From Chaetoderma sp. LZ-2023a (Eukaryota > Mollusca > Caudofoveata > Chaetodermatida > Chaetodermatidae), in assembly GCA_034401795.1 (NCBI GenBank), contig CM067366.1, positions 73,269,087 through 73,333,086 on the forward strand: a stretch of 64,000 bases of DNA. The letters are read 5' to 3'. This document shows positions 11,497-30,535 of the stretch, one piece after another (position 1 is the stretch's first letter; each line of letters begins with the position of its first letter). The notes beneath the pieces were generated by a model. The model ran no database searches. It worked only from the letters and a program-made list of their open reading frames with translations, and had not been told where the DNA came from. A program made the translations under genes and the position numbers.

Positions 11497-11520
11497 TTAG
11501 TGTAAGAATATTCAAGAGCA

Positions 11521-14500
11521 GAGGTATCTTCATCATCCTATTGCCACGTACAGCAGAGAGCTATGTGACTGGGCATATGATATGTATCTTCATCATCCTA
11601 TTGCCACGTACAGTGGAGAGCTATGTGACTGGGCGTATGATATGTATCTTCATCATCCTATTGCCACGTACAGTGGAGAGCTATGTGACTGGGCGTATGT
11701 TATGTATCTTCATCATCCTATTGCCACGTACAGTGGAGAGCTATGTGAATGGGCGTATGTTATGTATCTTCATCATCCTATTGCCACGTACAGTGGAGAG
11801 CTATGTGACTGGGCGTATGATATGTATCTTCATCATCCTATTGCCACATACAGTGGAGAGCTATGTGAATGGGTGTATGCTATGTATCTTCATCATCCTA
11901 TTGCCACGTACAGTGGAGAGCTATGTGACTGGGCGTATGTTATGTATCTTCATCATCCTATTGCCACGTACAGCAGAGAGCTATGTGACTGGGCATATGT
12001 TATGTATCTTCATCATCCTATTGCCATGTACAATGGAGAGCTATGTGACTGGGTGTATGTTATGTATCTTCATCATCCTATTGCCACGTACAGTGGAGAG
12101 CTATGTGACTGGGCGTATGATATGTATCTTCATCATCCTATTGCCACGTACAGTGGAGAGCTATGTGACTGGGCGTATGTTATGTATCTTCATCATCCTA
12201 TTGCCACGTACAGTGGAGAGCTATGTGAATGGGCGTATGTTATGTATCTTCATCATCCTATTGCCACGTACAGTGGAGAGCTATGTGACTGGGCGTATGT
12301 TATGTATCTTCATCATCCTATTGCCACGTATAGTGGAGAGCTATGTGACTGGGCGTATGTTATGTATCTTCATCATCCTATTGCCACGTACAGCGGAGAG
12401 CTATGTGACTGGGCGTATGTTATGTATCTTCATCATCCTATTGCCACGTACAGTGGAGAGATATGTGACTGGGCGTATGTTATGTATCTTCATCATCCTA
12501 TTGCCACGTACAATGGAGAGCTATGTGACTGGGTGTATGTTATGTATCTTCATCATCCTATTGCCACGTACAGTGGAGAGCTATGTGAATGGGCATATGT
12601 TATGTATCTTCATCATCCTATTGCCACGTATAGTGGAGAGCTATGTGACTGGGTGTATGTTATGTATCTTCATCATCCTATTGCCACGTACAGTGGAGAG
12701 CTATGTGACTGGGCATATGTTATGTATCTTCATCATCCTATTGCCACGTACAGTGGAGAGCTATGTGACTGGGCGTATGTTATGTATCTTCATCATCCTA
12801 TTGCCACGTACAGCAGAGAGCTATGTGACTGGGCATATGTTATGTATCTTCATCATCCTATTGCCACGTACAGTGGAGAGCTATGTGACTGGGCATATGT
12901 TATGTATCTTCATCATCCTATTGCCACGTACAGTGGACAGCTATGTGACTGGGCGTATGTTATGTATCTTCATCATCCTATTGCCACGTACAGCAGAGAG
13001 CTATGTGAGTGGGCATATGTTATGTATCTTCATCATCCTATTGCCACGTACAGTGGAGAGCTATGTGACTGGGCGTATGATATGTATCTTCATCATCCTA
13101 TAGCCATGTACAGCAGAGAGCTATGTGACTGGGCGTATGTTATGTATCTTCATCGTCCTATTGCCACGTACAGTGGAGAGCTATGTGACTGGGCGTATGT
13201 TATGTATCTTCATCCTTCTATTGCCATGTACAGCAGAGAGCTATGTGACTGGGCGTATGTTATGTATCTTCATCGTCCTATTGCCATGTACAGTGGAGAG
13301 CTATGTGACTTGGCGTATGTTATGTATCTTCATCATCCTATTGCCACGTACAGTGGAGAGCTATGTGACTTGGCGTATGTTCTGTATCTTCATCATCCTA
13401 TTGCCATGTACAGCAGAGAGCTATGTGACTTGGCGTATGTTATGTATCTTCATCATCCTATTGCCATTGTCAGTGGAGAGCTATGTGACTGGGCGTATGT
13501 TATGTATCTTCATCATCCTATTGCCACGTACAGTGGAGAGATATGTGACTTGGCGTATGTTATGCATCTTCATCATCCTATTGCCACGTACAGTGGAGAG
13601 CTATGTGACTGGGCATATGTTATGTATCTCCATCATCCTATTGCCATTGTCAGTGGAGAGCTATGTGACTGGGCGTATGTTATGTATCTTCATCATCCTA
13701 TTGCCACATACAGTGGAGAGCTATGTGACTGGGCGTATGTTATGTATCTTCATCATCCTATTGCCACGTACAGCAGAGAGCTATGTGACTGGGCGTATGT
13801 TATGTATCTTCATCATCCTATTGCCACGTACAGTGGAGAGATATGTGACTGGGTGTATGTTATGTATCTTCATCATCCTATTGCCATGTACAGCAGAGAG
13901 CTATGTGACTGGGCGTATGTTATGTATCTTCATCGTCCTATTGCCACGTACAGTGGAGAGCTATGTGACTGGGCGTATGTTATGTATCTTCATCATCCTA
14001 TTGCCATGTACAGCAGAGAGCTATGTGACTGGGCGTATGTTATGTATCTTCATCGGCCTATTGCCATGTACAGTGGAGAGCTATGTGACTGGGTGTATGT
14101 TATGTATCTTCATCAAACTATTGCCACGTATAGTGGAGAGATATGTGACTTGGCGTATGTTATGTATCTTCATCATCCTATTGCCACGTACAGTGGAGAG
14201 CTATGTGACTTGGCGTATGTTATGTATCTTCATCATCCTATTGCCATGTACAGCAGAGAGCTATGTGACTTGGCGTATGTTATGTATCTTCATCATCCTA
14301 TTGCCATTGTCAGTGGAGAGCTATGTGACTGGGCGTATGTTATGTATCTTCATCATCCTATTGCCATGTACAGCAGAGAGCTATGTGACTTGGCGTATGT
14401 TATGTATCTTCATCATCCTATTGCCATTGTCAGTGGAGAGCTATGTGACTGGGCGTATGTTATGTATCTTCATCATCCTATTGCCACGTACAGTGGAGAG

Positions 14501-15240
14501 ATATGTGACTTGGCGTATGTTATGTATCTTCATCATCCTATTGCCACGTACAGTGGAGAGCTATGTGACTGGGCATATGTTATGTATCTCCATCATCCCA
14601 TTGCCATTGTCAGTGGAGAGCTATGTGACTGGGCGTATGTTATGTATCTTCATCATCCTATTGCCACGTACAGTGGAGAGCTATGTGACTGGGCGTATGT
14701 TATGTATCTTCATCATCCTATTGCCACGTACAGCAGAGAGCTATGTGACTGGGCGTATGTTATGTATCTTCATCATCCTATTGCCACGTACAGTGGAGAG
14801 CTATGTGACTGGGCGTATGTTATGTATCTTCAACATCCTATTGCCACGTACAGTGGAGAGCCATGTGACTGGGCGTATGTTATGTATCTTCATCATCCTA
14901 TTGCCATGTACAGTGGAGAGCTATGTGAATGGGCGTATGTTATGTATCTTCATCATCCTATTGCCACGTACAGTGGAGAGCCATGTGACTGGGCATATGT
15001 TATGTATCTTCATCATCCTATTGCCACGTACAGTGGAGAGCTATGTGACTGGGCGTATGTTATGTATCTTCATCATCCTATTGCCACGTACAGTGGAGAG
15101 CCATGTGACTGGGCGTATGTTATGTATCTTCATCATCCTATTGCCACGTACAGTGGAGAGCTATGTGAATGGGCGTATGTTATGTATCTTCAACGTCCTA
15201 TTGCCACGTACAGCGGAGAGCTATGTTACCAGGCGTATGT
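11521..15240 (+). repeat. 60-bp minisatellite, 62 copies
   Basis: The unit runs from TATGTATCTTCATCATCC through CTATTGCCACGTACAGTGGA and GAGCTATGTGACTGGGCG. All 62 units are exactly 60 bp, with no indel over 3,720 bp. Variation is by substitution at a few sites: ACG/ATG/ATT in the middle, AGTGGA/AGCAGA, GACTGG/GACTTG/GAATGG, GCG/GCA/GTG. Variant order shows a higher-order duplication: 13081-13800 recurs at 13861-14760. Two plus frames stay open through most of it, giving 20-residue repeats with starts MYLHHPIATYSGELCDWAYV or CIFIILLPRTVESYVTGRML. The changes do not favour synonymous sites, so I consider it non-coding. Confidence 0.95.
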
Positions 15241-15675
15241 TAGTACGATCATGTAGCTTATGACCAGCGCACATAAGAGACAAAACACCTGTGACGTTTG
15301 TCACAAGTGATGTTTGTCATAAGTGACTAGGTGTAATTCATCATCATTAACACGCACACGAAGCCAATGTTTGTTAGTAATTTGAATGATCATGTAACGG
15401 ATAAAAATGGAACTATAACTCTGGTCATTTCACATATCACATGATCACTAAGTGATTGGTTTAATAATTGCTATTCCCTGCACCTCATCCACACGCCCTA
15501 CACACAAAGGAGTGATTTCAAGCTCACTGATGGCTGAATTATTAGGGCTGAAAATATATATTCCAAATTATTTTCTAGTTGCTTGTGATCAAAATCCCTG
15601 TCTCCATATTTTAGTTGCACACTGCTCTTTAAAAGCTAAAGATTTTTAGCAGCTGTCCTGGCTCTGTCCCACTGG
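15241..15675. other. No gene recognised
   Basis: This lies between the 60-bp array and the 3' end of the Gag-like gene. It contains a GTGACGTTTGTCACAAGTGA inverted repeat at 15290-15315. If the Gag belonged to a full retroelement, its polymerase should lie here, and it is absent. Confidence 0.5.
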
Positions 15676-15679
15676 CTAG

Positions 15680-17444
15680 TCAATTAGACTGGGTGCTATC
15701 CACCGGCTTGCCAAAATTGCGACTCTGAATTGTTCGCTTGGACGAGTTCGGGCATGTAGGTGCAGGGTGACCAGCCTTGCAGTTCCAACAGACATGCAAA
15801 TAGCGACAGAATTTTGCGAAGCAGCCACGGTTGCCATTGAAATTATTACAGATTTCCTTACCTAGGTAATTCACTTTCATTCTAGTACGGCCCCCATTAG
15901 CACCACTGTCAAAATTGTTCCTCCCGCCAGGACGAAAATATGGCCGGAATTCTAGAACCGAGGGACAAAACTTTGTTGTGTGATCATGTTGTTGACACAA
16001 GTCACAAGAGGTCAAAACCGACCCTGCCGTGACGGCCTGGATTATATCCCTGTCCTTAACCGACCAGTCAATTTTTTTGCCATGCTGTTGCAACCAGGCT
16101 GCTGCCTTGGCAGAAAATGCCCTATGGTATGCATAGAAAATCGATTTCCCAAACTGCGTATATAATTCGACAATCAACTGCAGATAACCATCAAGTTCCT
16201 GAATCCGTTGTGGGTATGCCTCACACATGATTTTTTTGTATACAATAAATGCTGACAAAAATTCTGAGTGTCAAATTCTTCTGCAACCTCACATCTTTGC
16301 GCATTCTCACAGCCATGCCTGTTTTTGCATCCATTGAGATTATCTCCCCTGTATTTGCATCAGGCATCAACAGCAGGGCTAGATTGACATCTTTACCTGC
16401 AATTATCGCCTGCCTCAAATTAGGAGACACAATCTCAATGCGTGGCAAGCTCTCCATCGCATAACCTTGACCATGCTTGGTTGCTGTCGGAACCTCTACT
16501 CCCAGACGATTTCCCCCAGTCAAGCACCCAGAAATAGGACCAAATGCCCTATCATCCTGGTTAAAAGTACAGTTTGCATTCGTCGCACCATCAGATCGTT
16601 CATCATACAGATCCCTCAAAGTAAAACCTGATAAAACAGGCAAATTACAGTTATTGTTACCTATACTTGGGCGTAGTCCCTCGTGGTGAAGGTGTTGGTC
16701 TGTATTAGTACCAGGAACAGTTGGCGTCACGAACGAATGAGAGTATGGTGATGACGATGGTGTAACTCCATCCAGGCCGGCACCGACACTCCTCTCACGA
16801 AAACTAGTGCCGGGTGATTGTAGGCCTGCCAGCCTACGTTGGAACGCCTCCAACTGCCGTGACAGGGCCCGCACCTCGAAATCTGTGCACCCCGTGTCAT
16901 AGTCATTGGGACCGAAATGATTACCTCCAGTGCTGGTCCCATCCCGTGTTATTGTTGTTGCTGTTCCATGATTGTTACGGTGGTTGCCATTTTGAAAGTC
17001 TATGTCATCGCTGCGCCGTTCTGATTGGCTAAGTCCGCCACACCCTTCCTCCGCTTGGTTCCCTGCCTCGATGACGTCACTCACCGGCCTGTCATTCATA
17101 ACAAACAACTGGACGAGTTGCGCTTTCCTAAAACTCGTCGGACAAACAATACCACGTTGTTTAAGTTTGTCACGCAAGGCCTTCGTACTCCAATTAACCG
17201 GTTCCGCATCGTCCCACACCGTCGACCTTTCGGTACCCGCACTGCTCGATCGAGACACAGCCGACACCCCCCGACTCCTAATTGAGTTTGGCTGCACGCC
17301 CCTGCAACCCCGCCTGCGGTCACGTGACGGAGAGCAGCTGTCAAAACTGACGTTTCTCAATGTTCCCGAAGCATTTGCTGCTAACCTCCGGATTGGAGAT
17401 CGACTACGCGTCGTGGGCGCGTTGCTAGCCGTGTTGCGGGACAT
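15680..17444 (-). pseudogene. Gag-like ORF of a DIRS-like or related retroelement, frameshifted
   Basis: Minus-strand gene in two overlapping frames (17444-16221, then 16258-15680); the switch lies near 16250. The N-terminal part is Ser/Arg-rich. It is followed by a SAP-like helix pair (about residues 87-120, with WSTKALRDKLKQRG), a low-complexity linker, and a conserved-looking block with SPNLRQAIIAGKDVNLALLL. The second part holds AFSAKAAAWLQQHG, a canonical zinc knuckle C-x2-C-x4-H-x4-C (CDLC...), a CCCH finger C-x8-C-x4-C-x3-H, and a last C-x2-C-x3-H-x4-C knuckle. This order matches Gag-like proteins that I associate with tyrosine-recombinase retroelements; that family call is from memory and moderate. 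No reverse transcriptase or recombinase follows, so it is a truncated remnant. Confidence 0.55.
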
Positions 17445-18330
17445 ATCAATAACTAGTTTTGTAGAAATTAACCTCGAACCTAATTCCTATGCTTCTTCTC
17501 AACCTATGCGTTCTCCAAACAGTAAACCCGCGTAAATAAAGCCACTTTATTAACTTATTAGGTATGTTCCACGGCTCACTGTAGTCACGGACACAAATTG
17601 ATTCGTTATTATTGTCAGCTAATCAACAGGCTAACATTTTCTAAACATCTAGTAAACTATAACTTTCATAAACTGGAATTGTATTACTTTTCACGACTAC
17701 GTTTCCCAGCTCACAGCAATTATTGAAAAACTGTCTTTATTTAACTATCTAAACTTTGACTTAAAACACCACTTTTTATCACAACGTTTAACAATATAGC
17801 AAAACTTAGCTTCAAAAACTTAGCTGTTCACAGACTGGCATCCAGAATGGAATGAACTGGGCGATTCCGCTATCAACTAACATGGTTACATTCTTGGACC
17901 AATTATGGTATAATCTAACTTGATTGGCTGAAATAATCATGCGATTCTGCAGAAGTAGTAGGCTGGTCGCTATGTACCTTCATGCAACCTAATATGGAGT
18001 GAAGACTGTTGCTTGACATCATCTTATTGGTATGCAGCTTGCACACCAAGAATTCCAAAAGTGTATGACTGATGCTATGATACCTACACCATCAGGGGAG
18101 CTAACTCTTCAGTACAACAGAAGAATGTACTAGCTACTATTTAATTTTGTTATTAAAGAGGAATTGGCCGTATGAAATATGCCAGTAGCCCTGCAATGTG
18201 TGCATCTGTTAATCATGTTTAATGGGTGTTAATCATTAAACTCCAATATATAGACAGACAGACTAGCGGACAAACCTACCACTTGTAGAGTGTGCGCCTG
18301 GTAGCATTTTTGTATTGATTAACTGTCTGG
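17445..18330. other. No gene recognised
   Basis: Upstream flank of the minus-strand Gag-like gene. It could hold that element's promoter or 5' repeat, but no direct repeat with the other side is visible. Confidence 0.4.
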
Positions 18331-18334
18331 CTGC

Positions 18335-18351
18335 TTTAGAGTTTGATTGAC

Positions 18352-18385
<34 letters not shown>

Positions 18386-19320
18386 CTTACTTGCTTGCTT
18401 GGTTGCTTGAGTCTTACTTGATTTGACAGGTTGCTTGATTTGATTGTTTGTTTGAGTTGATTGCTTGCATGACTTGTTATTTGACCTGATTGGTTGCGTG
18501 ATTTGATCTGATTGGTTGCATGATTTATTGCTTGAATTGGGTGCATGATTTGTTGCTTGAATTGATTGGTTGCGTGATTTGTTGCTTAAATTGATTGGTT
18601 ACGTGATTGCTTGCTTGAATTGATTGGGAGCGTCAGATTGATTGAGATTGATTGAGATTGATTGAAATTGATTGAAATTGATTGAAATTGATTAAGATTG
18701 ATTAAGATTGATTAAGATTGATCAAGATTAATCGAGATTGATTAAGATTGATTAAGATTGATTGATTGACTGGGATTTGCCTGATTGATTGGGGGCTTGA
18801 GTTGTTGCTTGATTTGATTGGTTGTTTCATTTGATTGGTTGTTTGATTTTGATTGCTTGCTTGATTTGATTGTCTGCATGACTTGTTGTTTGATTGGTTA
18901 CGTGATTTGTTGCTTGAATTTATTGGTTGCGTGATTGATTGTTTGATTTGATTGGTGGCGTGATTGATTGTTTGATTTGATTGGTTGCGTGATTGGTTGT
19001 TTAAACTGATTGGTAGCGTGATTGGTTGCTTGAATTGAATGGTTGTGTGATTGATTGGTTGTTTGAATTGATTTGTTGCGTGACTGGTTACTTGAATTGC
19101 TTGATTGGTTGTTTACCTAGTTGCTAGCTTGTCTGATTTGACTGATAGTTTGACTGGTTGTTTGATTGGTTGTGTGATCTGATTGCGTGCTTAATTTGAT
19201 TAGGTTTTGATTTGTGGTCTGCCTAGTTGAGGGATTGATTGGTTGCTTGTCTGCTTGACCGGTTTTAATTGATTGATTGGTTGATTGATTGATTGATTGG
19301 TTGCTTGTCTGTTTGACGGG

Positions 19321-19356
<36 letters not shown>

Positions 19357-19515
19357 AATTGACTGCCTAGTTGCTAGCTTGATTGATTGCTGATTTGATC
19401 GATAGTGTGATTGGTTGTTCGATTGGTGGTGTGATCTGATCAGTTGCTTGATTGGTTGGTTGATTTGATTGATTGATTGATTGGTTGCTTGTCTGTTTGA
19501 TTGGTTGATTGCCAA
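18335..19515. repeat. GATT-rich degenerate tandem repeats
   Basis: Runs of TTGATTGATTGATT alternate with longer variants such as TTGATTGGTTGCGTGATT, and a 10-bp phase GATTGATTRA occurs at 18640-18760. The tract ends about 10 bp before the first ATG of the Penelope-like ORF1, so it occupies the place of that element's 5' leader. The minus-strand frame of Asn/Gln/Ser repeats is a by-product. Confidence 0.85.
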
Positions 19516-19524
19516 GGCATTATC

Positions 19525-21120
19525 ATGGCTAGACAGAGCAGGGGAGGGAGAAAGGATGGCAATGAATCAGATTCACGCCACCAATCTTCTGCCCATGCTC
19601 GCCTAGTCAAGGTATACTATATGGTAATACAATGCTTCCATCACCTTGGTGTGTTGGGCAAGCGCATGGAGGCAGAGATACTGCCAAACTGCTTAGGCAA
19701 GAAGCTAAAAGAACTAAACAAGTTCTGCAAACCAGCCATGCCAAATGGAGATGTCCACTTTAACATTTGTAATGCTAATTTTGGTTGGGCTAAATCCATA
19801 GTACAAACTCTAATCAATCATTACAATTGCCAACTTGGCTGTATCAGATCCGAAATTATATTAGCCCAGAATCATTCCCACCTAGACGTCGGCCGTGCCA
19901 AGTCAACCGCCATTCGCTGGGCAAAAAACAATCATGGAAAAAGGCTTCATGATAAGGCTATTGCAGCCTTTTATGACTTTATCAGACCCATTGATCCTCA
20001 TTTTTTCCCTGCTGCCGTCAACAGAAATGCTACTCCAGTTCGTAAAACACCAGCCGAAACATCAGATTTTGTACCACCCTCTCAGGCTAAAAAGCGGGTA
20101 AGGTCACCTGCTGAGACCTCACCTCCAATCAAACGTACAGATACCAGGTGTTCTCCAGGCAGTGTCCCATCTACATCCTGTGATGGCAACATGCACTCAC
20201 CAATTAACCCATTGCTAATCCCATTACCTGAGTCACCACCACCCGCCGAAACCTCGGCACCGATCATACACATAGATATCAGGCCTTCACCAGTCTGTGT
20301 CCAATCTACATCCGTTAATGACGAGATGCAGTCACAAATTGATCCAGCATCAATCCCTTTACCTGAGTCGCCACCGCCTTCTGCACCATCATTCTCACCT
20401 GATGATTTCCCCCCGCTTCCACAGAGGGTAGCTAAATCCGATCGGATATCAATAGAAAACAAGCTGGGACTCACAACCCACACTACTCCAAAAGTACTGC
20501 AACCACGGTTCACACCATCTCCTCAGTCTAAGCCTAGAAAACCAACGAAGCTAGAGCAAAATACATTCTAGAAATTCCGGTATGAGTCATGCAACAAACC
20601 AAATTGGCAGCTCCCAACCATCAACAAAAAGATCCTGTTGCTTGGAGCATCTAACCTGAGCCGAATCAATGTGGCACCCCACCCAGAAATGCATGTAGCT
20701 TGCTTCCCTGGGGCATCTATCAATGATCTAAGAATGATCATTAATAGATACTCAGCGAAAGTCAAACCAGAAAAGATCATCCTAAATATAGGCATAAACG
20801 ATCGAGATAACCCGATCCTAGCCTCAGACAATCGGCTCAGGTTGTTGTTCAGCATGGTGAGGAAGAAGTTCCCTTCAGCGAGCATCTACTTCACTAAGTT
20901 AAACTTCTCAACCACTTCGACCCTGTATCAAAAACGTGCACTGGAGGCAATCAATTGTGTTGCTGAGTCTAGCAGGACCAAGTCCTCTGAGTCCGGCGTT
21001 ATTGTCATTCCACGCCTGCCACTCACAGAGTTCAGTGTGTGTCATGACAATATTCACTGGACTGAGAGAACTGCTAATGCTATCTATGGTAATTGGCTCA
21101 AGTTCCTTAATTTAAATTGA
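19525..21120 (+). pseudogene. ORF1 of the Penelope-like element: unknown domain plus SGNH hydrolase
   Basis: The ATG at 19525 is the first in frame. Residues 1-160 form a Lys/His-rich, probably helical domain I do not recognise. Residues 165-330 are Pro/Ser-rich with two diverged repeats, each ending PLPESPPP, then DDFPPLPQ. An in-frame TAG at 20569-20571 is followed in the same frame by an SGNH hydrolase: Ser in LLGASNLSR, Gly in FPGAS, Asn in NIGIND, Asp and His in HDNIHWTE. All four SGNH blocks are present. In CR1-group LINE ORF1 proteins and some DIRS-type elements such domains occur as putative esterases. The TAG is probably one nonsense mutation. The ORF ends TGA at 21118-21120, exactly at a slippery sequence leading into the reverse transcriptase frame. 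Confidence 0.7.
21111..21120 (+). promoter_or_regulatory. Candidate -1 ribosomal frameshift site joining ORF1 to ORF2
   Basis: In the SGNH frame the last codons read AAT TTA AAT TGA, so T TTA AAT fits the X XXY YYZ slippery heptamer in the correct phase, directly before the stop. A -1 slip gives TTT AAA TTG and enters the reverse transcriptase frame, which is closed by TAA at 21108-21110 just upstream and has no ATG of its own. Short stems are possible downstream (GGGT at 21125 or 21131 with ACCC at 21142; CCCAG at 21143 with CTGGG at 21156), but no strong pseudoknot is evident. Confidence 0.5.
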
Positions 21121-22954
21121 ATGAGGGTCAGGGTAGCATCCACCCAGAACTGGAACTGGGACTAGGTAGTAATGTTGTAAACTTAACCGGCTCCACATTA
21201 GGTGAAGCAGAACAGTCACTGCTTAACCTTGGCTTGACATTTGTCCCAACACCAAAATCTAAAACAGGTTTGGATGCAGATTTAGATAATGGCTTTACTG
21301 AAACTGCTGAATTTGGTCACCGAGTGAAATTGGCAGATTTTTTTCGAAACTCCAATAGTAATATTCCACCATTCATTGAAAAAAACGGCTGGGCTCCAAA
21401 CTTAAAATGTGTGACCCAGCAATCGGTGAAAGTATTAAACTTTACTCTGAACGTATTGAAAATACTACATTTCCAAATGATCAGCAAAATTTATCCTATG
21501 AGCAAAGCCAGGCCATATTAGGTTTATCTAGAAAAAGTGAAATTGTCATCAAACCTGCAGATAAAGGGTCGGCTACTGTAATAATGGATAAAGACAACTA
21601 CATCAAAGAAGCGCATAGACAGCTTAGTAATCCAAAGCATTACCGAAAACTAAATGAACCACTTTGGCAAAATAACTGTAGCAAATTCAACGAAATTCTC
21701 CAAAAAATGGTTGATAGCAAGAAGATAACTGAAAAGCAATTTAAATACCTGTGCGCAAAAGATGATTCGAAACCACGTACATTTTATCTTCTTCCTAAAA
21801 TCCATAAGTCTGTTGACTCGTGGACTGACCCAATGACACCACCAGGGCGACCCATTATTTCAGATTGTGGTTCGGAATCATATAGGATTAGTGAATTTAT
21901 CGACTACCATCTTCAGCCAATTGCAAATAGACATTTTAGCTATCTGAAAAACACTGAAGACTTCCTAGCCCATGTCTCTAAGATCTCGGTCCCTCCAAAT
22001 TCATTCTTAATTACAATGGACGTTGATGCTATGTACACAAACATTGACATCGAAAAGGGTCTAAATTCGATTCGTAGAGCGTTTGCCGACTATCCTGACA
22101 CAAACAGGCCCGACAGAGAGGTAATAGCTCTATTAGAGCTTAGTCTGAAGGGCAATGACTTTGAATTTGCTGGTGAAATTTTCCAACAAATTTGTGGCTG
22201 CGCAATGGGTAAGCGTTTCAGCCCAGGTTTCGCTAACCTTTACATGGCAGAGTGGGAAAAGGAAGCACTCGAAAACTGTCCAAATCAGCCGCTCATTTAC
22301 CGCAGGTACCTCGATGACATTTTCATGATCTGGCAACATAGTAAGGAAGCATTTACCGAATTTCTGGCCATTCTGAATAATCATGATCCGAATATCAAGC
22401 TAAAAGCTCAAATTGATGAGCTGTCCGTAGATTTCCTGGATGTAACTTTATACAAAGGTATAAAGTATGAAACAACTGGTTACTTAGACTACAAAGTTTA
22501 TTTTAAGCCAACCGACTCGCATCAACTACTGCACAAGAAATCATTCCATCCACCACATACTTTCAAGGGACTTGTAAAATCACAAATAATCCGTTTTCAT
22601 AGAAATTCGAGTGATAAGAAAAACTTTGAATCATCATGTTCGACCTTATTCAAAGCCCTCAAACCGAGAGGGTACTCTTCTCGGTTCCTGCATAAAATAA
22701 AGTCTGAAACTTTGCATAATTTGGAAATCATTCCGGATAATGCCAGAAATTCTCGGCCTACCAAAATTTGTCATAATCGTCCGATTATTGGTGATGGAGA
22801 ATCTCGGAAATGTGAAAAGAAAAGGTGTAAATTGGATAAATTTCTTCCTTCCCAGAGTACATTCATGAGCTTTCAAAACAAAAGCAAATTTCAAATTCAG
22901 TCGAAATTAGATTGCGATTCTGAAAATGTCATTTACTTAATTTCATGCAAATTA

Positions 22955-22957
22955 TGA
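22955..22957 (+). other. In-frame TGA at a conserved Cys position
   Basis: The frame reads ISCKL-TGA-QKQYVGET and continues open to 23425. Family members usually have Cys here (C-x-x-C before YVGET). It could be a one-base nonsense mutation of TGT/TGC or a selenocysteine codon. Confidence 0.6.
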
Positions 22958-23503
22958 CAAAAACAGTATGTTGGCGAAACGAAAGATCGACTAAGATGCC
23001 GAGCAACTAGACACCTTTCAGATATTAGACTAGAGGAAGAAACACATGTTGCTGAACATTTTAATCTTCCTGATCATTTAGTCACTCGTGACTTTGAAAT
23101 TATGCCTATCGAACATCTACCTCTTTCAGATACAACAGAGGAAACTGATAAACAAAGAAAACTAAGAGAATCGTTTTGGATTAAAGAACTCCAAACACAA
23201 TGGCCAAGGGGCATAAATTCGGACCCAGGCCTCTCGGATCAACGTGAAATTATCCCATTTACTCTCACATACAATCGGAAAAATGTTGAAATTGCGAAAA
23301 TCTTAAAGGATGAGTATCACAAATTACAGGACAATTTAAAACAACCATTCAACAAGCGTCCAGTAATTGCATTTAAGAAAAATCCTAATCTATGTGACAT
23401 CTTAGTAAAAGCCAAACTGAAATAAGTGTTCAAAACATCAATCAATGATTTATCATTGTATACTAATCAGGCCATATGGCATCTCTTAAACAAAATTGAC
23501 AAT

Positions 23504-23561
23504 CTCAGGTGATAAAATAAGCAAAAATATTTTCAATTTTTTCAATTTTGAAAATTCTGAG
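23504..23561 (+). other. Weak SECIS-like hairpin downstream of ORF2
   Basis: CTCAG (23504) can pair with CTGAG (23557). Just inside are TGAT (23510) and TGAA (23549), which fit the UGAN/KGAW quartet, separated by 35 AT-rich bases with an A-run near the apex. The composition is so AT-rich that chance is likely. Confidence 0.15.
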
Positions 23562-23648
23562 CCGGTGCGTTTACAATATTACATACATACACTGATCTAT
23601 AAGGTATTTTTCTGGAAAAATATTGCAATTACTATTGCCCGTCACAAA

Positions 23649-24038
23649 CAGGGTTCGTACACCTTTCTATATTTGAAATTCCATGACTTTTCCATGACCA
23701 AAATTTACCATTTTCTGTGACTTTCATGAATTAATTACTAGTAGAGTTTTTATGACATAGCTACATAAATTATAACCCGAGTTATTCTGCAAATGTCTGA
23801 ATATTGCGTCTTGCAACAACCAAGCCAAAGTCTTGTTTTGATAAGCTATTGCCATAATTCTTATTTTATAGTGGTGATGGCCGTAATTTATGCCAACAGA
23901 TTTCTTTTATTTTTCATTATTACCATTTTCCATGACTTTTCCATGAAAAATGCTGATTTTCCATGACTCTCCAGGCCTGGAATTTAAATTGTCAAATTCC
24001 ATGACTTTCCAGGATTTCCATGACCAGTACAAACCCTG
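23649..24038. mobile_element. Non-autonomous hAT-like element, copy 1
   Basis: The ends CAGGGTTCGTAC and GTACAAACCCTG are inverted. The interior is rich in CCATGACTTTTCCATGA. CACAAA(CA) occurs directly at both edges (23643-23650 and 24039-24046), close to an 8-bp target duplication. A second copy is at 36896. Confidence 0.65.
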
Positions 24039-24248
24039 CACAAACATCACCTGTATGCTCTAGGCATTACACCACATAAACATAGCGCTGGAAGTTTCAT
24101 GTGTTCATTTTTTGTTTGCAATGATATTACCATTTTCAAACCCCTAAGCCTCTTGTCAAGGTCTGTCTGTGCATCATAAATTCTGCTCAATTGCAACTGA
24201 TAGAGTTCAGTTACTGGGTAGTTTAAGCCATTGGACTCTTCTGCAAAC

Positions 24249-24484
24249 TTAACACTTTAACACTCATATCAGCAAAAACGGCTTCTGCAGTGGTGGTCAG
24301 AAATGTCCATTAGCAGACCATGAGACCATTTTTGAAAATTTACCACTGGAATGGCTGGCTCGATAATCAACCTAGTCATTTCAGTGATAAATTTCCAAAA
24401 ATAGTCTTCTCTTGGTCTGCAAATGGACATTTTCTATAACAAAATTTTAATTTTCTAGATCAAATTCGAGAGTTAAAGAGTTAA
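24249..24484. mobile_element. MITE family A, full length
   Basis: Begins TTAACACTTTAACACTCATA and ends CGAGAGTTAAAGAGTTAA. Both outer arms and the core (GGCTGGCTCGATAATCAACC / TAGTCATTTC) are present. Confidence 0.85.
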
Positions 24485-24606
24485 TTGAGTGCAGTTTGAT
24501 TATAAAGATGCTGGACAAGACTTTAGTGCTGCTATCAGACAGAATCACATGTGACAATGTACTTAACTATCTGACTGCTACAAGCCATGACAATAACTTC
24601 AATGGC

Positions 24607-24765
24607 CAATAACTTTGGACCTGCTGAATATTATGAAAACAATTTGACTGAAAGTTGTTGGTTACTTAGCCACTAACAAATTTCAGTCAAATTGTTTTCA
24701 AAATATTCAGCATATTCCAGGGTTAGACCTTATGGAATGTGTGATCTGCAGAAATTCAGCTGGCA
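24607..24765. mobile_element. Longer repeat carrying hairpin B, copy 2
   Basis: The hairpin at 24622-24712 has the apex GGTTACTTAGCCACTAAC and CAATTTGACTGAAAGTTG arms. The flanks match 9840-10013, including CAGGGTTAGACCTTATGGAA and TCTGCAGAAATTCAGC. Confidence 0.65.
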
Positions 24766-25200
24766 GTAACAGTAGTAGATTCCATCCTGCGGGTCACAGT
24801 CAGAGATGATGACTTCGTCTAAGTTACAAATCGTCCTGATAAAAGTGAGTAAAATTTGACTAAACGTCGCTTCCGCATCTATATTTAGCCAGGTGCCAGA
24901 GTTATCTCCCATTAAATCCAGTTTTCTCATAATTCAGAAGCGATACCTCACTTAAATCTTGTCGGTCATAACTGTACATTCCAGATAAAACCTACGAATC
25001 ACCTATGATGCATCATCGATCACAAAGTGGCATGTCACTTTAAAATGTCAGTGTTAAGAATATTTCCGTTCTCGCTAAGATCCAATCATCCCGCTTTATA
25101 TGGACGGGGAAACCATAAAAGTATGAAAACGTTGTCTTCATCGTAGGTGCAAAAAATGCTTTTCCGATTTCTCACTGATCCATGTGTAAGTCGACATGAC
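24766..25200. other. No gene recognised
   Basis: A 66-codon minus-strand frame (24730-24930) contains the GGGAGATAACTC repeat motif, so I do not treat it as an exon. Confidence 0.4.
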
Positions 25201-25209
25201 AGTGGCAAA

Positions 25210-25522
25210 TGGAGGCATAATCCCACGAGAGGTGTAGGGGTGACAAACTCAGTTTTAATATCGGCCCACTTTACTGTAGCCACATTACGGGCTGAGGTCT
25301 ATCAAGAAAGCCAGTTTTATCTATGCCCTGCCCATCTCTATTTAAGCTCCACCCACACTTTGCCCGTGTTGAAATCAATCGATCCCTACACTCACTGAAT
25401 AGCAATTTCCATAAAACTATACAGGTAAGTTATTTATTATTTTGAAACTAATTTGAATGGGTGCTGTTGCTCCCTATGGCAGCAACGGTGTCCAGTTAAA
25501 TTAATTTCAAAATATTTAACAG
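25210..25522 (-). repeat. Dispersed composite repeat, reverse copy
   Basis: CTATGCCCTGCCCATCTCTA and AAGCTCCACCCACACTTTG are the reverse complement of the GC-rich tail seen at 620-960 and 56948-57310. A hairpin B follows at 25427-25522 (GCTGTTGCTCCCTATGGCAG apex). Confidence 0.65.
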
Positions 25523-25572
25523 AATGTGTATTAAATAGTCACTATCATAATTACCACAGACATGCAATTCAA

Positions 25573-25696
25573 ACTGTTTCGATAAGCAAGCCAGTCATTC
25601 CAGTGGTAAATTTTCAAAAACAGTAATTTCTTGGTCTACAAACAGACATTTTCTATGAGAAAACGGAGTGTCTTGAACAAATTCGATGGTTAAAGT
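25573..25696. mobile_element. MITE family A, half copy
   Basis: Starts inside the core (GATAAGCAAGCCAGTCATTC) and keeps the TTTCTTGGTCTACAAACAG arm and a GGTTAAAG end. The left half is missing. Confidence 0.6.
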
Positions 25697-25728
25697 GTAG
25701 GCAAGACATTGTTATCATTTCATGAATC

Positions 25729-25948
25729 TTAACCATTTAACACGCATATGAGCCAAAAACAGCTTCTACAGTGGTCTTGAGAAATATCCATTTGCAGACC
25801 AAGAGAAAACAATCTTTGAAAATTTACAACTGGCCAGGAATGAGTCTCGATAACCGAGCCAATCATTCCAGTGGTAAATTTGTAAAACAGTCTTCTCTTG
25901 GTTTGAAATTTGAAATTTTCTTGAACAAGTTTACAGCTTAAAGGTTAA
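25729..25948. mobile_element. MITE family A, full length
   Basis: Begins TTAACCATTTAACACGCATA and ends AGCTTAAAGGTTAA. The core is GTCTCGATAACCGAGCCAAT. Confidence 0.8.
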
Positions 25949-26567
25949 GATAGGTAAGGTACTTGCTAAATTACAGCACCGAGAGCTTAGGTCATGTTTT
26001 ATGAATTCGGGGCCCAGGAAATAGTGGCTCTAATTCATGACCACATATCATAAAGGGCCACCTGTTGTAAGTGGTCACCTGTCTTAAAGAACCACTTGTT
26101 CAGCCTAGTCCCAATAGTTTTGCCCATTCCTTCATTTTCTACCGTGTGACAAGTTTTAAAATGTTCTTATTTGAAATCAGTTATTTCTTAATTCAGCCAC
26201 TCGATGTCGAACAAATCTATCAAACGATGAAGATTAGGTAATCATCATGTGACATTTCATGAAGACACACACTCTCAACACTGCCGAGAAACGTGTTTCA
26301 GGATTTGTTCCTCGGTCATGTCCCTTGCATCGAGAAAGGTAATCAGTGTGCCATTACAGGAAGCCACTGGACAAAATGCAGAAAATCTGCAGCTAATTTC
26401 TCTCATTTGTCCTGGGATCAGGGACAGTACAGGAGCGTGGTTAGCTGACGGGAAAACAGATTTACTCTGATCAAAACTTGGGCTATATTTAGCTCAAAGT
26501 GTATCCAAGTATAGCGATTCAATTGTAAAGGGAAAATTCAAACATCACTGTCATGCCACTGCATTAC
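25949..26567. other. No gene recognised
   Basis: A 73-codon plus frame (26249-26470) has no recognisable domain. Nothing else is seen. Confidence 0.4.
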
Positions 26568-26770
26568 TTAACTCTTGGCACTCTGACGTTAAAATTTTAA
26601 ATTTTCAAATTAAATTAAAAGATGAACTGGTGTTCATTTTTAAACAAATTTGGTGGAAGATGGTGCTGTCATAGACAGCAACATCGTCCACCAAATTTGT
26701 TCAAAAATGTACACCAGTTTCTTTGCTACCGGCACTGTAAAAAGATAGAATGTTGATAGCAGAGTAATTC
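26568..26770. mobile_element. Hairpin family C, unexpanded copy
   Basis: Starts TTAACTCTTGGCACTCTGAC. The palindrome is GTGGAAGATGGTGCTGTC / GACAGCAACATCGTCCAC with ATA at the apex. This is the single-copy ancestor form of the 14-bp array locus at 34307-35173. Confidence 0.7.
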
Positions 26771-27164
26771 AGAGTGAGAGTCATGACAAAAAGACAATAC
26801 ATTTCTATATGTTCCACATGTACAGCTACAAAATATATATCTGTGGATATAATAATTCTGAGGTGAAACTGATGTTCCGATTCTCATGCAGAAACCATCT
26901 TTTCATATGCAAATATTTAAACAGCGATATATGGAATATACCGTAACCATACTTATAAATGGAGTTTGAATAGAGAACAATTTCCTTTATGTATTTAAAA
27001 ATATCATTGGTGAAACGATCAGAAAACTAGAAAATGTTGTTTGACTCAGAGGGCCCTGCAATCACTGGAAATACCTTTCTCTATGTAGTAGGTAGGAATT
27101 TCTTTGAAACCTTCATACTATCAAAAATTAAAATTAAAAAACAAAAATAGGTTAAATATTTTGG

Positions 27165-27610
27165 GTGGAAATTGGCCTTTTAATGCAAAAACTTAAGATT
27201 TTTGTTAATTTACTTGTTTAAAAATAAAAGTTTTCTACGTTTTTGCATTAAAAAGCCAGTTTTCACCGAAAATCTTGGACCTATATAAGTAAATCCTCCA
27301 AAAGGTATGTCTACCCGTCACAAAGCTACTTGCTAAGTTTCATTAAATTATTTTAAGCGATTCCATACAATATGCCGATTATGTGAATATTGACAAAAAT
27401 CGTGAGTTTTCGTATTAAAATGCCCATTTTCACCAAAAATATGTTCCTTCAAAGGGCACATCTAGACATCATAAAGAAGCCACCTGCCAAGTTTCATTAA
27501 ATTATTTTAAGCGATTCTGTATAATATTGTGTTTACGAGGAAATTGACAAAAATCCTGAGTTTTTACATTAAAAAGCCCATTTTCACCCAAAATATTGGC
27601 TCTAACAAGG
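27165..27610. repeat. Diverged tandem plus inverted repeat
   Basis: A unit with GAGTTTT..ATTAAAA.GCC.ATTTTCACC and CAAGTTTCATTAAATTATTT TAAGCGATTC recurs at about 27216, 27392 and 27547. A reverse-complement copy of its start lies at about 27165-27210, so the left part can fold back. Confidence 0.6.
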
Positions 27611-27619
27611 TGAATTCTT

Positions 27620-28050
27620 CAAAAGGCCCTAATTATCCAGCATGAGCAATCAGAGATTGCAAACTCCCAGTTTTTGTGAATGATAGGGTGACCACAATTA
27701 TATGGCTATATAAGTAATTGAATTCCACAGAAATAAATGTCCACCACTTATTTAAGAAATACCCTTTTTTATAATTTATGAGAATTTTAAGAGTGGGCAT
27801 TTTACATAGAGACGTCAGCAAGACTTAGTGCGGCCCATTTGGAAGATTAGAGGGACCCTACGAAAGAGTGGTCTTATTACAGAGGCGATCAGCAAGTGTA
27901 GTATGACCACATTCTTAATTTTGGTGCATGCATGTTGTCAAATAAATGTACACTCATGAACATGCGCGCATGCACATGCACGCACGCACACACACACATG
28001 CACGCTCATGAACGTATCACATCCAAAGATGGTGAATGATAGCGTAACCC
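27620..28050. other. No gene; CA/CG-rich microsatellite
   Basis: CATGCACGCACGCACACACA-type sequence lies at about 27960-28010. Otherwise this is unremarkable AT-rich DNA. Confidence 0.5.
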
Positions 28051-28051
28051 G

Positions 28052-28291
28052 TTAACCCTTAAACGCTCAAATTTGTTCAAGAAAATTTCAATTTTCTCAT
28101 AGAAAATCTCCATTTGCAAACAAAGAGAAGACTGTTTTTGGAAATTTACCACTGGAATGACTGGCTCGGTTATAGATCCAGTCATTCTAGTTGTAAATTT
28201 TCAAAAACAGCCTTCTCTTGGTCTGCAAATGGACAATTCTCAAGATCACTACAGAAGCCATTTTTGGCCGACATGAGTGTTAAAGGGTTAA
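28052..28291. mobile_element. MITE family A, full length
   Basis: Begins TTAACCCTTAAACGCTCAAA and ends TGAGTGTTAAAGGGTTAA. It has the core CTGGCTCGGTTATAGATCCA and both distinct outer arms. It is one of the best-preserved copies. Confidence 0.9.
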
Positions 28292-28519
28292 TAGTGAAAC
28301 CAGCTAAAACCAGCCGCTGCAGTGGTCCTGAGAAATTGGCCCTATTACACAACAAGAGAAAACTATTTTTGATAATTTACTGCTGGAATTTCTGCTTCAA
28401 TAACTGAGCAAGTCATTCGAGTGGCAAGTTTTTAAAAAAACCACATTTCTCTTGGCTTGCAAATGAACAGTCAATAAGCAAAGATTTTGATTTTCTTGAC
28501 CACATTTTACTATTAAAGA
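28288..28519. mobile_element. MITE family A, variant ends, abutting the previous copy
   Basis: Shares the TTAA of the preceding copy. It contains CCGCTGCAGTGGTCCTGAGA, a decayed core and GATTTTCTTGACCACATTT. Confidence 0.7.
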
Positions 28520-28674
28520 CTAAAATGAATTTGTGTGAAAACTGCACGAATAGAAACAGCCTCTCGCTGAGCGATTGCCGGTATTTATAAGCGAGTAGAT
28601 ATCTCATATAGACACACATGAGCAGGAGTATTGACCAGAAAGATGAACTCTAAGTATGTCTATACAGATTACTG

Positions 28675-28830
28675 TTTAACACTCAAATTCACTAAATGAA
28701 AATTTTAATTTTCTCACAGAAAATGTCATTTTGTCAACCAAGAGATTATTTTTTACTTCTATTGGTCTGCAAATAGGCATTTCAAAGAGAAGTGCAGAAT
28801 CGGTTTTTAGCTGATTTGAGTGTTCAACCT
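28675..28830. mobile_element. MITE family A, core-deleted
   Basis: Keeps the two different outer arms (CTCAAATTCACTAAATGAAA; GATTTGAGTGTTCAACC) but lacks the palindromic core. Confidence 0.6.
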
Positions 28831-28834
28831 TTAT

Positions 28835-29405
28835 ACAGATGTCTAGAGAGTGATAATTAACACTCCATTGGCAACATACCAAGTACGGTACATACAGCAA
28901 ATCAATGTCCAGACGGTATTATTGACTGGCTTTAACGATTGCGGGAACTTGTAGAGAGGAAAGCTGAAATGTCACACATAGTCATCTTCATCATAGAGCC
29001 GTAGTCATCACCACAGACGTCATCATACTCCCCCCTACCACCACCCCCCACCCCCAACACACAGTCATCACCGCAATCACTGGCCCCATCACCACATAAG
29101 TAAATCTGTTTGGGACGATGGCCAGAAGATAATAGTGCCAGCGTCGCCTCGAGGTTTGGAAATGACAATGCAATCTACATGTCCATAATGATTACACGCA
29201 TGCACTAAAAACGGATTTGGAAGGAAGGAAATGTATTCAATCCATAGATAGATAGATAGAAAGTGCATTTATATTGTGCTGACCTCCATGCGATTGCATG
29301 CTCTAAGCGCTGCACATCTGATTTGACTGGTAATAATTGCTACAAGTTTCAATTTCTATTTGGGAATAAATATATAATGAAATAGAATTGGTGAATTATT
29401 TAAAG
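28835..29405. other. No gene recognised
   Basis: Includes a C-rich stretch (29030-29060), a GATA microsatellite (29247-29263), and a TTTATATTGTGCTGACC... AAGCGCTGCACA phrase typical of dispersed repeats. Confidence 0.4.
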
Positions 29406-29406
29406 T

Positions 29407-29633
29407 CTCCAATGGCCAAATTTGGTCGGGAATAACAAAATATTTGAATGTCCATTTTGAGACTAGGAGAAGACTATTTTTGAAAATTTAACACTGAAAT
29501 GGCTGGCTCGGGTTATCGAGCCAGTCACTTCAGTTGTAAATTTTCAAAAATACTATTCTCTTGGCCTGCAAATGGCCACACCTCAAGACCACTGAAGAGG
29601 TTGGTTTTGGCCGGCTTTAGCATGAAAGGATTA
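29407..29633. mobile_element. MITE family A
   Basis: The core GGCTCGGGTTATCGAGCC is intact, and the outer arms are moderately diverged (CAATGGCCAAATTTGGTC; GCATGAAAGGATTA). Confidence 0.7.
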
Positions 29634-29639
29634 GATTCT

Positions 29640-30535
29640 GTAATTGAACAACAGAAACCTAATTCCAAACTCACCATGATTTTTTGTGGACAATGTAATT
29701 TGTCTAAATTATATTAACTAATTTTCTGATGCCAATGGCCTTGACCTTTTGAGTGAGGGAAAACAGGTTAAGCAAACCCTTGATGAAAGACAGTCACAAA
29801 AAAACTTTTAAGTCAGCGATCACCGCTAGTTAGATGATTGCCTCTGGTGGCTAAACACTCATCGCAATCAAAGTCGCACTAACCTTATTTATAGTCAGGA
29901 CTCCAGCAATTCCTTAAATGGAAAATCTTTCAGCTAGATGTTTGTTCACTGTGATTGGCTTTCATGAACGAACCTCATCTCGGACAGTAACAGAGACAGA
30001 AACTGCCCGAACTGTTGACTGACGAATATTCAATTAAGAAACGTCTTTGTATTTCATCTATAGGTACGCTGTAGAAAGTGCAAAGAGCAACCATATCTGA
30101 CACGACGCTGTCAATCGATGATGCTGCTTTTATCATCAGTTGTCGATGACGATCACATGATTGTCGTAGGTGCTGTCTCTCCGTCATCAGAAAACAAATG
30201 AAAAACAAATACAAAGAGGGAACAAATTAAATTAAGGATACATTTTTATCCAATTATCGCGAGAACAAACACAGAATGTCCGCAGTGACAAGGCTGATGG
30301 CTTTATACCCTTATCAGTCTGGAAGTTATGGACAGTAGTTACCACACCATTGCTAAACTAACTGATAATTTTTGAAAATGATTGATTCTTAAGGCAGTAA
30401 CATGTTTCAGTCCAATCATCTTCAAAATATCTAGGCGGTTTCTTACTAATCTCCATTATAATCACCAGATATGTATTGATGCTATGAAAATGGCCAACTT
30501 TTGCAATCTGACTGGGTCAGAAATAAGATGACGGA
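29640..30535. other. No gene recognised
   Basis: A 79-codon minus frame (29975-30214) has ordinary composition but no recognisable domain. A degenerate hairpin B lies at 30362-30433. Confidence 0.4.

Follow-up and report, generated by a model that had tools for sequence, protein, structure and literature searches.

Penelope-like elements (PLEs) are retroelements related to telomerase, and the way in which they transpose is still little understood. Canonical PLEs, such as PAc of Anolis, are described as single open reading frame (ORF) elements in the available text of one study (PMC11167929), GDSL ORFs are reported for the endonuclease-less Athena/Terminon PLEs of rotifers in the accessible parts of two others (PMC5408684, PMC6431247), and the accessible text of Schneider et al. 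2013 (PMC3905857) states that ORF1 proteins of the SGNH esterase type occur in CR1, RTEX and, on the basis of RepBase, "even in Penelope-like elements". The element considered here is a multicopy PLE of the caudofoveate mollusc Chaetoderma sp. LZ-2023a, a damaged copy of which spans positions 18246-23592 of the window, that is, the whole 64,000-nucleotide (nt) stretch of DNA analyzed (GenBank assembly GCA_034401795.1, contig CM067366.1, positions 73,269,087 to 73,333,086 of the forward strand). In this element, an SGNH hydrolase ORF is followed by an ORF for a Penelope-type reverse transcriptase (RT) and a GIY-YIG endonuclease, and the two are likely translated as a fusion through a −1 ribosomal frameshift.

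Like canonical Penelope/Poseidon elements such as PAc, the element combines an RT with a C-terminal GIY-YIG domain and occurs in tandem copies; PAc has an upstream hammerhead motif, for which the present element has a merely hammerhead-like candidate. PAc is described in the text available as having a single ORF (PMC11167929), whereas translation of ORF2 here appears to depend on a −1 shift out of an SGNH ORF1. Athena/Terminon elements share the association of a PLE RT with a GDSL/SGNH ORF; however, as far as the text of their reports extends, they are endonuclease-deficient, telomeric, up to 40 kb long and rich in ORFs (PMC5408684, PMC6431247), in contrast to the two ORFs, the GIY-YIG domain and the 5.8-8 kb tandem units found here. 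The PLEs of Schneider et al. 2013 (PMC3905857) also have an SGNH esterase as their ORF1 protein and animal hosts but, compared by description, appear in the accessible text without PLE anatomy, a frameshift junction or ORF1/ORF2 exchange. A sequence-only reading of the window had singled out this locus as its best candidate for an undescribed system; that claim falls, and an undescribed kind of element was rejected, because this source already puts an SGNH esterase ORF1 in PLEs. The CR1/L2 element ZfL2-1 (PDB 4c1b) has a similar order of N-terminal region, linker and esterase upstream of an RT, although its N-terminal region is a coiled coil and its ORF2 is that of a long interspersed nuclear element (LINE), unlike the N-terminal domain without a Pfam match and the Penelope-type RT with GIY-YIG of the present element. 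The ORF2 endonuclease of ZfL2-1 is of the apurinic/apyrimidinic endonuclease (APE) type. With GIY-YIG and PLE-type motifs in the partner ORF2, the locus does not fit a CR1-group LINE esterase element.

The genome searched was the window's own assembly (2.44 Gb, 2753 contigs). There, ORF1 (N-terminal domain, Pro-rich linker and SGNH hydrolase) and a −1-frame ORF2 (RT and GIY-YIG) make up one element, which is represented by four diverged lineages whose ORF1s are designated M, W, T and F; the window copy belongs to W. The Penelope-type RT and GIY-YIG domain downstream of an SGNH ORF, together with the motifs GAS, FPG, GIND and DNIH, are all present as the sequence-only reading had described them, and the features of the window copy are as follows.

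18246..19524, + strand: 5' leader, mostly degenerate TTGATTG-type repeats, homologous to M leaders
19525..20568, + strand: N-part of ORF1, with the N-terminal domain (about 19594-20028) and the Pro-rich linker (from translation and the four-lineage alignment)
20569..20571, + strand: in-frame TAG of a decayed copy (the W copy L039 is open across the region)
20572..21117, + strand: ORF1 SGNH hydrolase domain with GAS, FPG, GIND and DNIH (Pfam, PDB profile and Foldseek matches)
21111..21117, + strand: T TTA AAT slippery-type heptamer, with the ORF1 stop (21118-21120) directly after it (sequence and recurrence across loci)
21111..21413, + strand: N-terminal part of ORF2, in the −1 frame relative to ORF1 and without Met (from translation)
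21410..22954, + strand: ORF2 RT (KPADKG, YLDD) and start of GIY-YIG, after a lesion-type frameshift (open frame 21380-22954; RVT_1 match)
22958..23425, + strand: remainder of the GIY-YIG endonuclease and the ORF2 C-terminus including the stop (open in L002 and others)
23426..23592, + strand: 3' untranslated region (UTR), terminating in TTACATACATACA, a 3' end common to M copies

Homology to other copies begins at 18246 and ends at 23588-23592, so the element is longer than the interval 19525..23425 originally delimited. The window ORF1 runs from an ATG at 19525 to the stop at 21118-21120 and is interrupted by the single TAG, while ORF2, in the −1 frame from 21111, undergoes a second frame change near 21410 (the frames overlap at 21380-21521) and is broken by a TGA at 22955-22957 inside the GIY-YIG domain. 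With these three lesions, the window copy is a relic, although its RT remains 97-99% identical in amino acids to those of 81 other scored copies. Its pieces match Lipase_GDSL_2 (E=3.5e-5), RVT_1 (E=2.5e-6, 27.8 bits) and GIY-YIG (E=0.1), all under the curated cut-offs.

The junction between the two ORFs carries the principal finding. ORF1 ends in CTT AAT TTA AA[C/T] followed by TAA or TGA, and the −1 frame, shut just upstream by a TAA (within CTTAATTT), becomes open precisely at TTT AAA. A −1 shift can therefore create a fusion only across T TTA AA[C/T], a heptamer of the canonical X XXY YYZ type that lies in the 0 frame, inside the region where the ORFs overlap and directly before the ORF1 stop. 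TTTAAAC is also the slip site of coronaviruses. The heptamer and stop occur in 56 of 58 loci (41 with TTTAAAC and TAA, 15 with TTTAAAT and TGA), corresponding to 53 of 55 distinct places since three pairs of loci represent the same place; the loci lacking it are L016 and L049, and L031-L033, which also bear it, stand outside the 58. The frameshift-type junction originally noticed is thus a recurrent property of the family. Over the 1659 columns of the codon alignment of ORF1 from the four lineages, the sole identical block of at least 10 nt is CTTAATTTAAA, 11 nt long, at the junction, where Leu-Asn-Leu also forms the sole run of two or more identical codons. Among 20 invariant Leu residues in ORF1, only two use the same codon in all four lineages, both at the junction. 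When synonymous codons were shuffled, an identical 11-nt block arose at the ORF1 end in none of 2000 trials (anywhere in 10 of 2000), and elsewhere in these ORF1s in-frame XXXYYYZ words account for 12 of 2024 codon steps. In ORF2, Met first appears at residue 14 in M, at 47 in T, at 61 in F and at 159 in W, and a GLTFVPTP stretch near the ORF2 N-terminus, common to all four lineages, precedes this Met in T, F and W, so that a separate ORF2 start would lose this stretch in those three. These features indicate that ORF1, RT and endonuclease are likely fused by frameshifting at the heptamer.

The two ORFs also appear to have had different pasts. Between M and W, synonymous divergence (dS) is 1.70 in ORF1 versus 0.06 across codons 1-418 of ORF2, and between T and F it is 3.39 (near saturation) versus 0.36. 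In three profiled W copies, identity steps up about 60 nt beyond the heptamer on its 3' side, which places the M/W heptamer on the old, diverged side, where it is nevertheless kept; the T/F step lies inside a 100-nt block that contains the heptamer. All 12 W loci have an ORF2 with 93.7-98.1% DNA identity to that of M, and none of the 12 joins a W-type ORF1 to an equally old W-type ORF2. By sequence comparison, the ORF1 and ORF2 modules are decoupled, with separate histories, whether they were swapped or homogenized.

Copy counts from the genome searches are lower bounds. The RT search gave 82 scored matches (of 18016 first-look candidates) at 97-100% amino acid identity, 64 of them with a 769-codon open frame, and the SGNH-domain search gave 150 (of 5440 candidates), comprising 87 at 85-100% (W) and 63 at 70-73% (M). 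The T ORF1, first met beside a W copy, has at least 53 matches at 83-100%, and the F ORF1 appears at about 66-70% among the matches listed in the T ORF1 search. Many RT matches are in tandem, with spacings of 7278 bp and about 8.05 kb, and F forms 5783-bp units; in one F array, two copies are identical across 818 overlapping bases. Judging from its near-identical open copies, the family has recently been active. An RT lies directly downstream in 12 of 12 W loci fetched by the SGNH domain (the window included; L042 is truncated within ORF2) and in 11 of 14 T loci fetched by ORF1, while an SGNH domain is carried by 29 of 30 loci fetched by the RT, the exception being L016, which is 5'-truncated within a microsatellite. 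Searches of viral contigs, genome contigs and plasmids (the last with the RT only) gave no confirmed relatives. Taken as a whole, the account of an autonomous PLE family with frameshift fusion and module exchange, of which the window holds a dead copy, is considered probable.

Other copies depart from this arrangement. In the T loci L046, L047 and L049, an internal deletion has cut the SGNH domain mid-way and fused it to the 3' end of ORF2; together with L042, these are deletion derivatives in which a T-type ORF1 cut mid-SGNH is joined to the ORF2 3' end and UTR, and they are candidate non-autonomous copies. A second GIY-YIG PLE family, represented by L062, has 31% amino acid identity to the RT of the element. 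In L062:1731-5134, a 906-codon RT-GIY-YIG frame is overlapped in a different frame by a 360-codon upstream frame, for which neither an SGNH match nor a Pfam match was obtained in the one copy read; the SGNH ORF1 is therefore not common to every PLE in this genome.

The four ORF1 proteins (483-531 codons from ATG) align end to end, with identities to M of 65% for W, 50% for T and 52% for F, and the catalytic S, G, N, D and H residues of blocks I, II, III and V are invariant in all four lineages. Lipase_GDSL_2 matches M, W and F at 20.4-25.7 bits (cut-off 32.9; E 1.8e-5 for the intact M copy), and T yields only Lipase_GDSL at 13.5 bits (cut-off 23.6) and DUF6873 at 14.1 (cut-off 27). Judged by its motifs, and not by cut-off, the domain belongs to the SGNH/GDSL hydrolases as a divergent member. 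Among PDB entries, the SGNH profile matches 4c1b, the ZfL2-1 ORF1 esterase, best (E 0.0032). Modeling of the window domain from its sequence alone gave a weak structure (predicted local distance difference test 48, predicted template modeling score (pTM) 0.53), and with this low-confidence model Foldseek retrieved sialate O-acetylesterase (E 1.8e-5) and platelet-activating factor acetylhydrolase (E 3.9e-5). The N-terminal domain has no Pfam match at E<=1, and its all-helical model (pTM 0.36) is too weak for use. Ratios of nonsynonymous to synonymous divergence (dN/dS), calculated by the Nei-Gojobori method, are 0.14 for ORF1 and 0.11 for the SGNH domain between M and W, 0.27 for ORF1 between two M copies, and 0.06 for ORF1 between T and F, the last at a dS of 3.4 that is near saturation. 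Such low values show that the ORF1 protein is maintained by purifying selection.

ORF2 translations contain the PLE-type motifs KPADKG and YLDD, the former of which we take to be the N-terminal RT motif of PLEs and the latter of which is the active site. RVT_1 matches the intact F copy above its cut-off (E 8.6e-8, 32.6 versus 29.6 bits) and is unlisted for the intact M copy at E<=1. On the same ORF, the C-terminal GIY-YIG domain scores 21.9 bits in M (E 2.2e-4) and 19.3 bits in F (E 0.0014) against a cut-off of 22.6, and L002 displays the motifs VIYLI...YVGET. With RT motifs, a C-terminal GIY-YIG on ORF2 and tandem arrangement, the element has, by its sequence, the attributes of an endonuclease-bearing PLE. 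The strongest GIY-YIG matches, including a run of 127-codon frames every 384 bp, lie at 2.28-3.27 Mb of contig G000:C18, which may not be animal nuclear DNA.

Several observations weigh against the account of frameshift fusion and module exchange. The SGNH match stays under the Pfam curated cut-off in every lineage scanned, and 55 junction loci provide 39 distinct 1.2-kb contexts, with L035 and L036 identical and some loci tandem or duplicate, so that not all are independent insertions. Folding of the 65-95 nt downstream of the heptamer is no more stable than that of shuffled sequences (z +0.3 to +1.4), and a simple scan of this region for pseudoknots gave nothing in M and, in W, a single candidate equalled by 9 of 60 shuffles. 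TTTAAAT is a weaker slip site, the early Met of ORF2 in M leaves reinitiation possible in that lineage, and the dual-coding overlap itself constrains TTTAAA, although this constraint presupposes translation of both frames. An ordinary esterase-ORF1 PLE of the kind already reported from RepBase, in which ORF2 is produced by termination-reinitiation or low-level internal initiation and the heptamer is a by-product of overlapping codons, draws some weight from the Met positions in M and T, the failure to find a stimulatory structure and the precedent of SGNH ORF1 in PLEs in the accessible text of Schneider et al. 2013 (PMC3905857). This explanation is nonetheless unlikely, given that the first Met of T, F and W lies beyond the conserved N-terminal stretch, that the −1 frame is shut directly upstream of the heptamer, and that invariance extends to silent sites that precede the overlap and do not belong to the ORF2 frame (CTTAA).

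For the separate histories, the case for exchange is weaker in T/F than in M/W because the T/F dS in ORF1 is near saturation. By distance, M groups with W and T with F in ORF1 as well as in ORF2 and only the depth differs, a pattern compatible with either replacement of ORF1 or homogenization of ORF2. Homogenization of ORF2 among lineages by gene conversion or recombination, with ORF1 diverging in place and nothing swapped in, agrees with this shared grouping and is a real possibility, if somewhat the less probable one; the M-like ORF2 in all 12 W loci and the single step in three W copies fit one event in a W ancestor better. The sequence-only reading had named RT copies lacking the SGNH ORF as evidence against a single unit, and this occurs in part, in that nearly the same RT lies under clearly differing M and W ORF1s; both of these ORF1s, however, are SGNH proteins, which makes the M/W pairing a matter of module exchange and not of chance adjacency. 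The window copy with its three lesions could by itself have hinted at an SGNH gene and a PLE RT adjacent by accident at one locus, an explanation with no other support. The junction recurs in four lineages and at 53 of 55 distinct places, equivalent to 56 of 58 loci, which leaves this explanation a negligible probability; it was rejected on that recurrence. The earlier view of one element, which several copies in the same SGNH-RT order were expected to support, accordingly holds, with many copies available.

The ends of the element offer further points of comparison. M copies and the window copy terminate in TTTACAATATTACATACATACA or close to it, and beyond the 3' end lies the next unit, a TACA run or other flank; M 3' tails (e.g., L031:8153-8220) pass into variable TACA repeats, and L016 is inserted in a similar microsatellite. 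Target preference or synthesis of the tail by the RT may account for these repeats. The window leader is 77.5% identical to that of L031 over 1085 aligned positions (window 18246-19299). A hammerhead-like motif was found by our own pattern search in the leaders of the M copies L031 and L033 and the F copy L060, with stem II paired by different letters in M and F and with one extra A in the core. An extra core A also occurs in one viroid hammerhead. These motifs fold mildly better than shuffles (z −0.96 in L031, −0.73 in L033 and −2.20 in L060), but the Rfam hammerhead models gave no match in window positions 14000-30000 and none in L031-L033 at E<=2. The pattern was not found in the window copy or in L061, and since homology of the window to M leaders starts only at 18246, the window copy is 5'-truncated or has another leader. 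Tandem arrays of a roughly 346-bp repeat (L032:1-2616, L031:8286-10000 and L061) directly flank or receive PLE copies, the element in L032 being 5'-truncated into such an array; with tRNA-promoter-like boxes by our reading, these repeats resemble short interspersed nuclear elements.

A mechanism can be proposed from these features. Where ORF1 ends, a minority of ribosomes would likely move back by one base on U UUA AA[C/U] and produce an ORF1-RT-endonuclease fusion, so that ORF1 protein would be plentiful and polymerase scarce, in the manner of Gag and Gag-Pol. The N-terminal domain may multimerize or bind the element RNA, and the SGNH domain might act on lipid or acyl esters, placing or moving the ribonucleoprotein at membranes as proposed for CR1/L2 ORF1 proteins; both roles are put forward with less assurance than the slippage. 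Integration would depend on nicking by the GIY-YIG domain and on target-primed reverse transcription, with tandem arrays and 5' truncations as the outcome, and exchange between lineages near the ORF boundary would presumably involve template switching or recombination. A Gag/Gag-Pol-like PLE of this kind, with the slip site setting the ratio of an esterase "coat" to the fusion and ORF1 exchanged nearby as a unit while the polymerase is kept, is slightly favored.

Other features of the window lie on both sides of the element. At 15680-17486 on the − strand, two adjoining frames, one with an HeH/LEM match (E 9e-4) and one with Cys/His motifs that we read as zinc-knuckle-like, resemble the gag of another element, and a minisatellite at 11501-15256 on the + strand can be read without a stop for 1251 codons, which encode repeats of about 20 residues. 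On the 3' side of the element, inverted and direct repeats (24329-24444, 25574-25928 and 24622-24712) likely represent another small transposon; microRNA-family matches in this region fall under the gathering scores of their families.

Within the reach of the searches, two aspects are new, namely the probable frameshift fusion in a PLE with an endonuclease and the decoupling of the modules, the SGNH association being known already; neither a PLE frameshift nor decoupled ORF1/ORF2 modules were found in the open-access literature searched, judged mainly from listings. With many near-identical open copies, an ORF1 that has conserved catalytic residues and is under purifying selection, and a testable slip site, this abundant family would permit a direct test of the role of the esterase ORF1, and it would allow a retrovirus-like control of the ORF1-to-polymerase ratio in PLEs to be addressed directly. 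The joining of two histories close to the slip site would reveal how coat-like modules are traded among retroelements.

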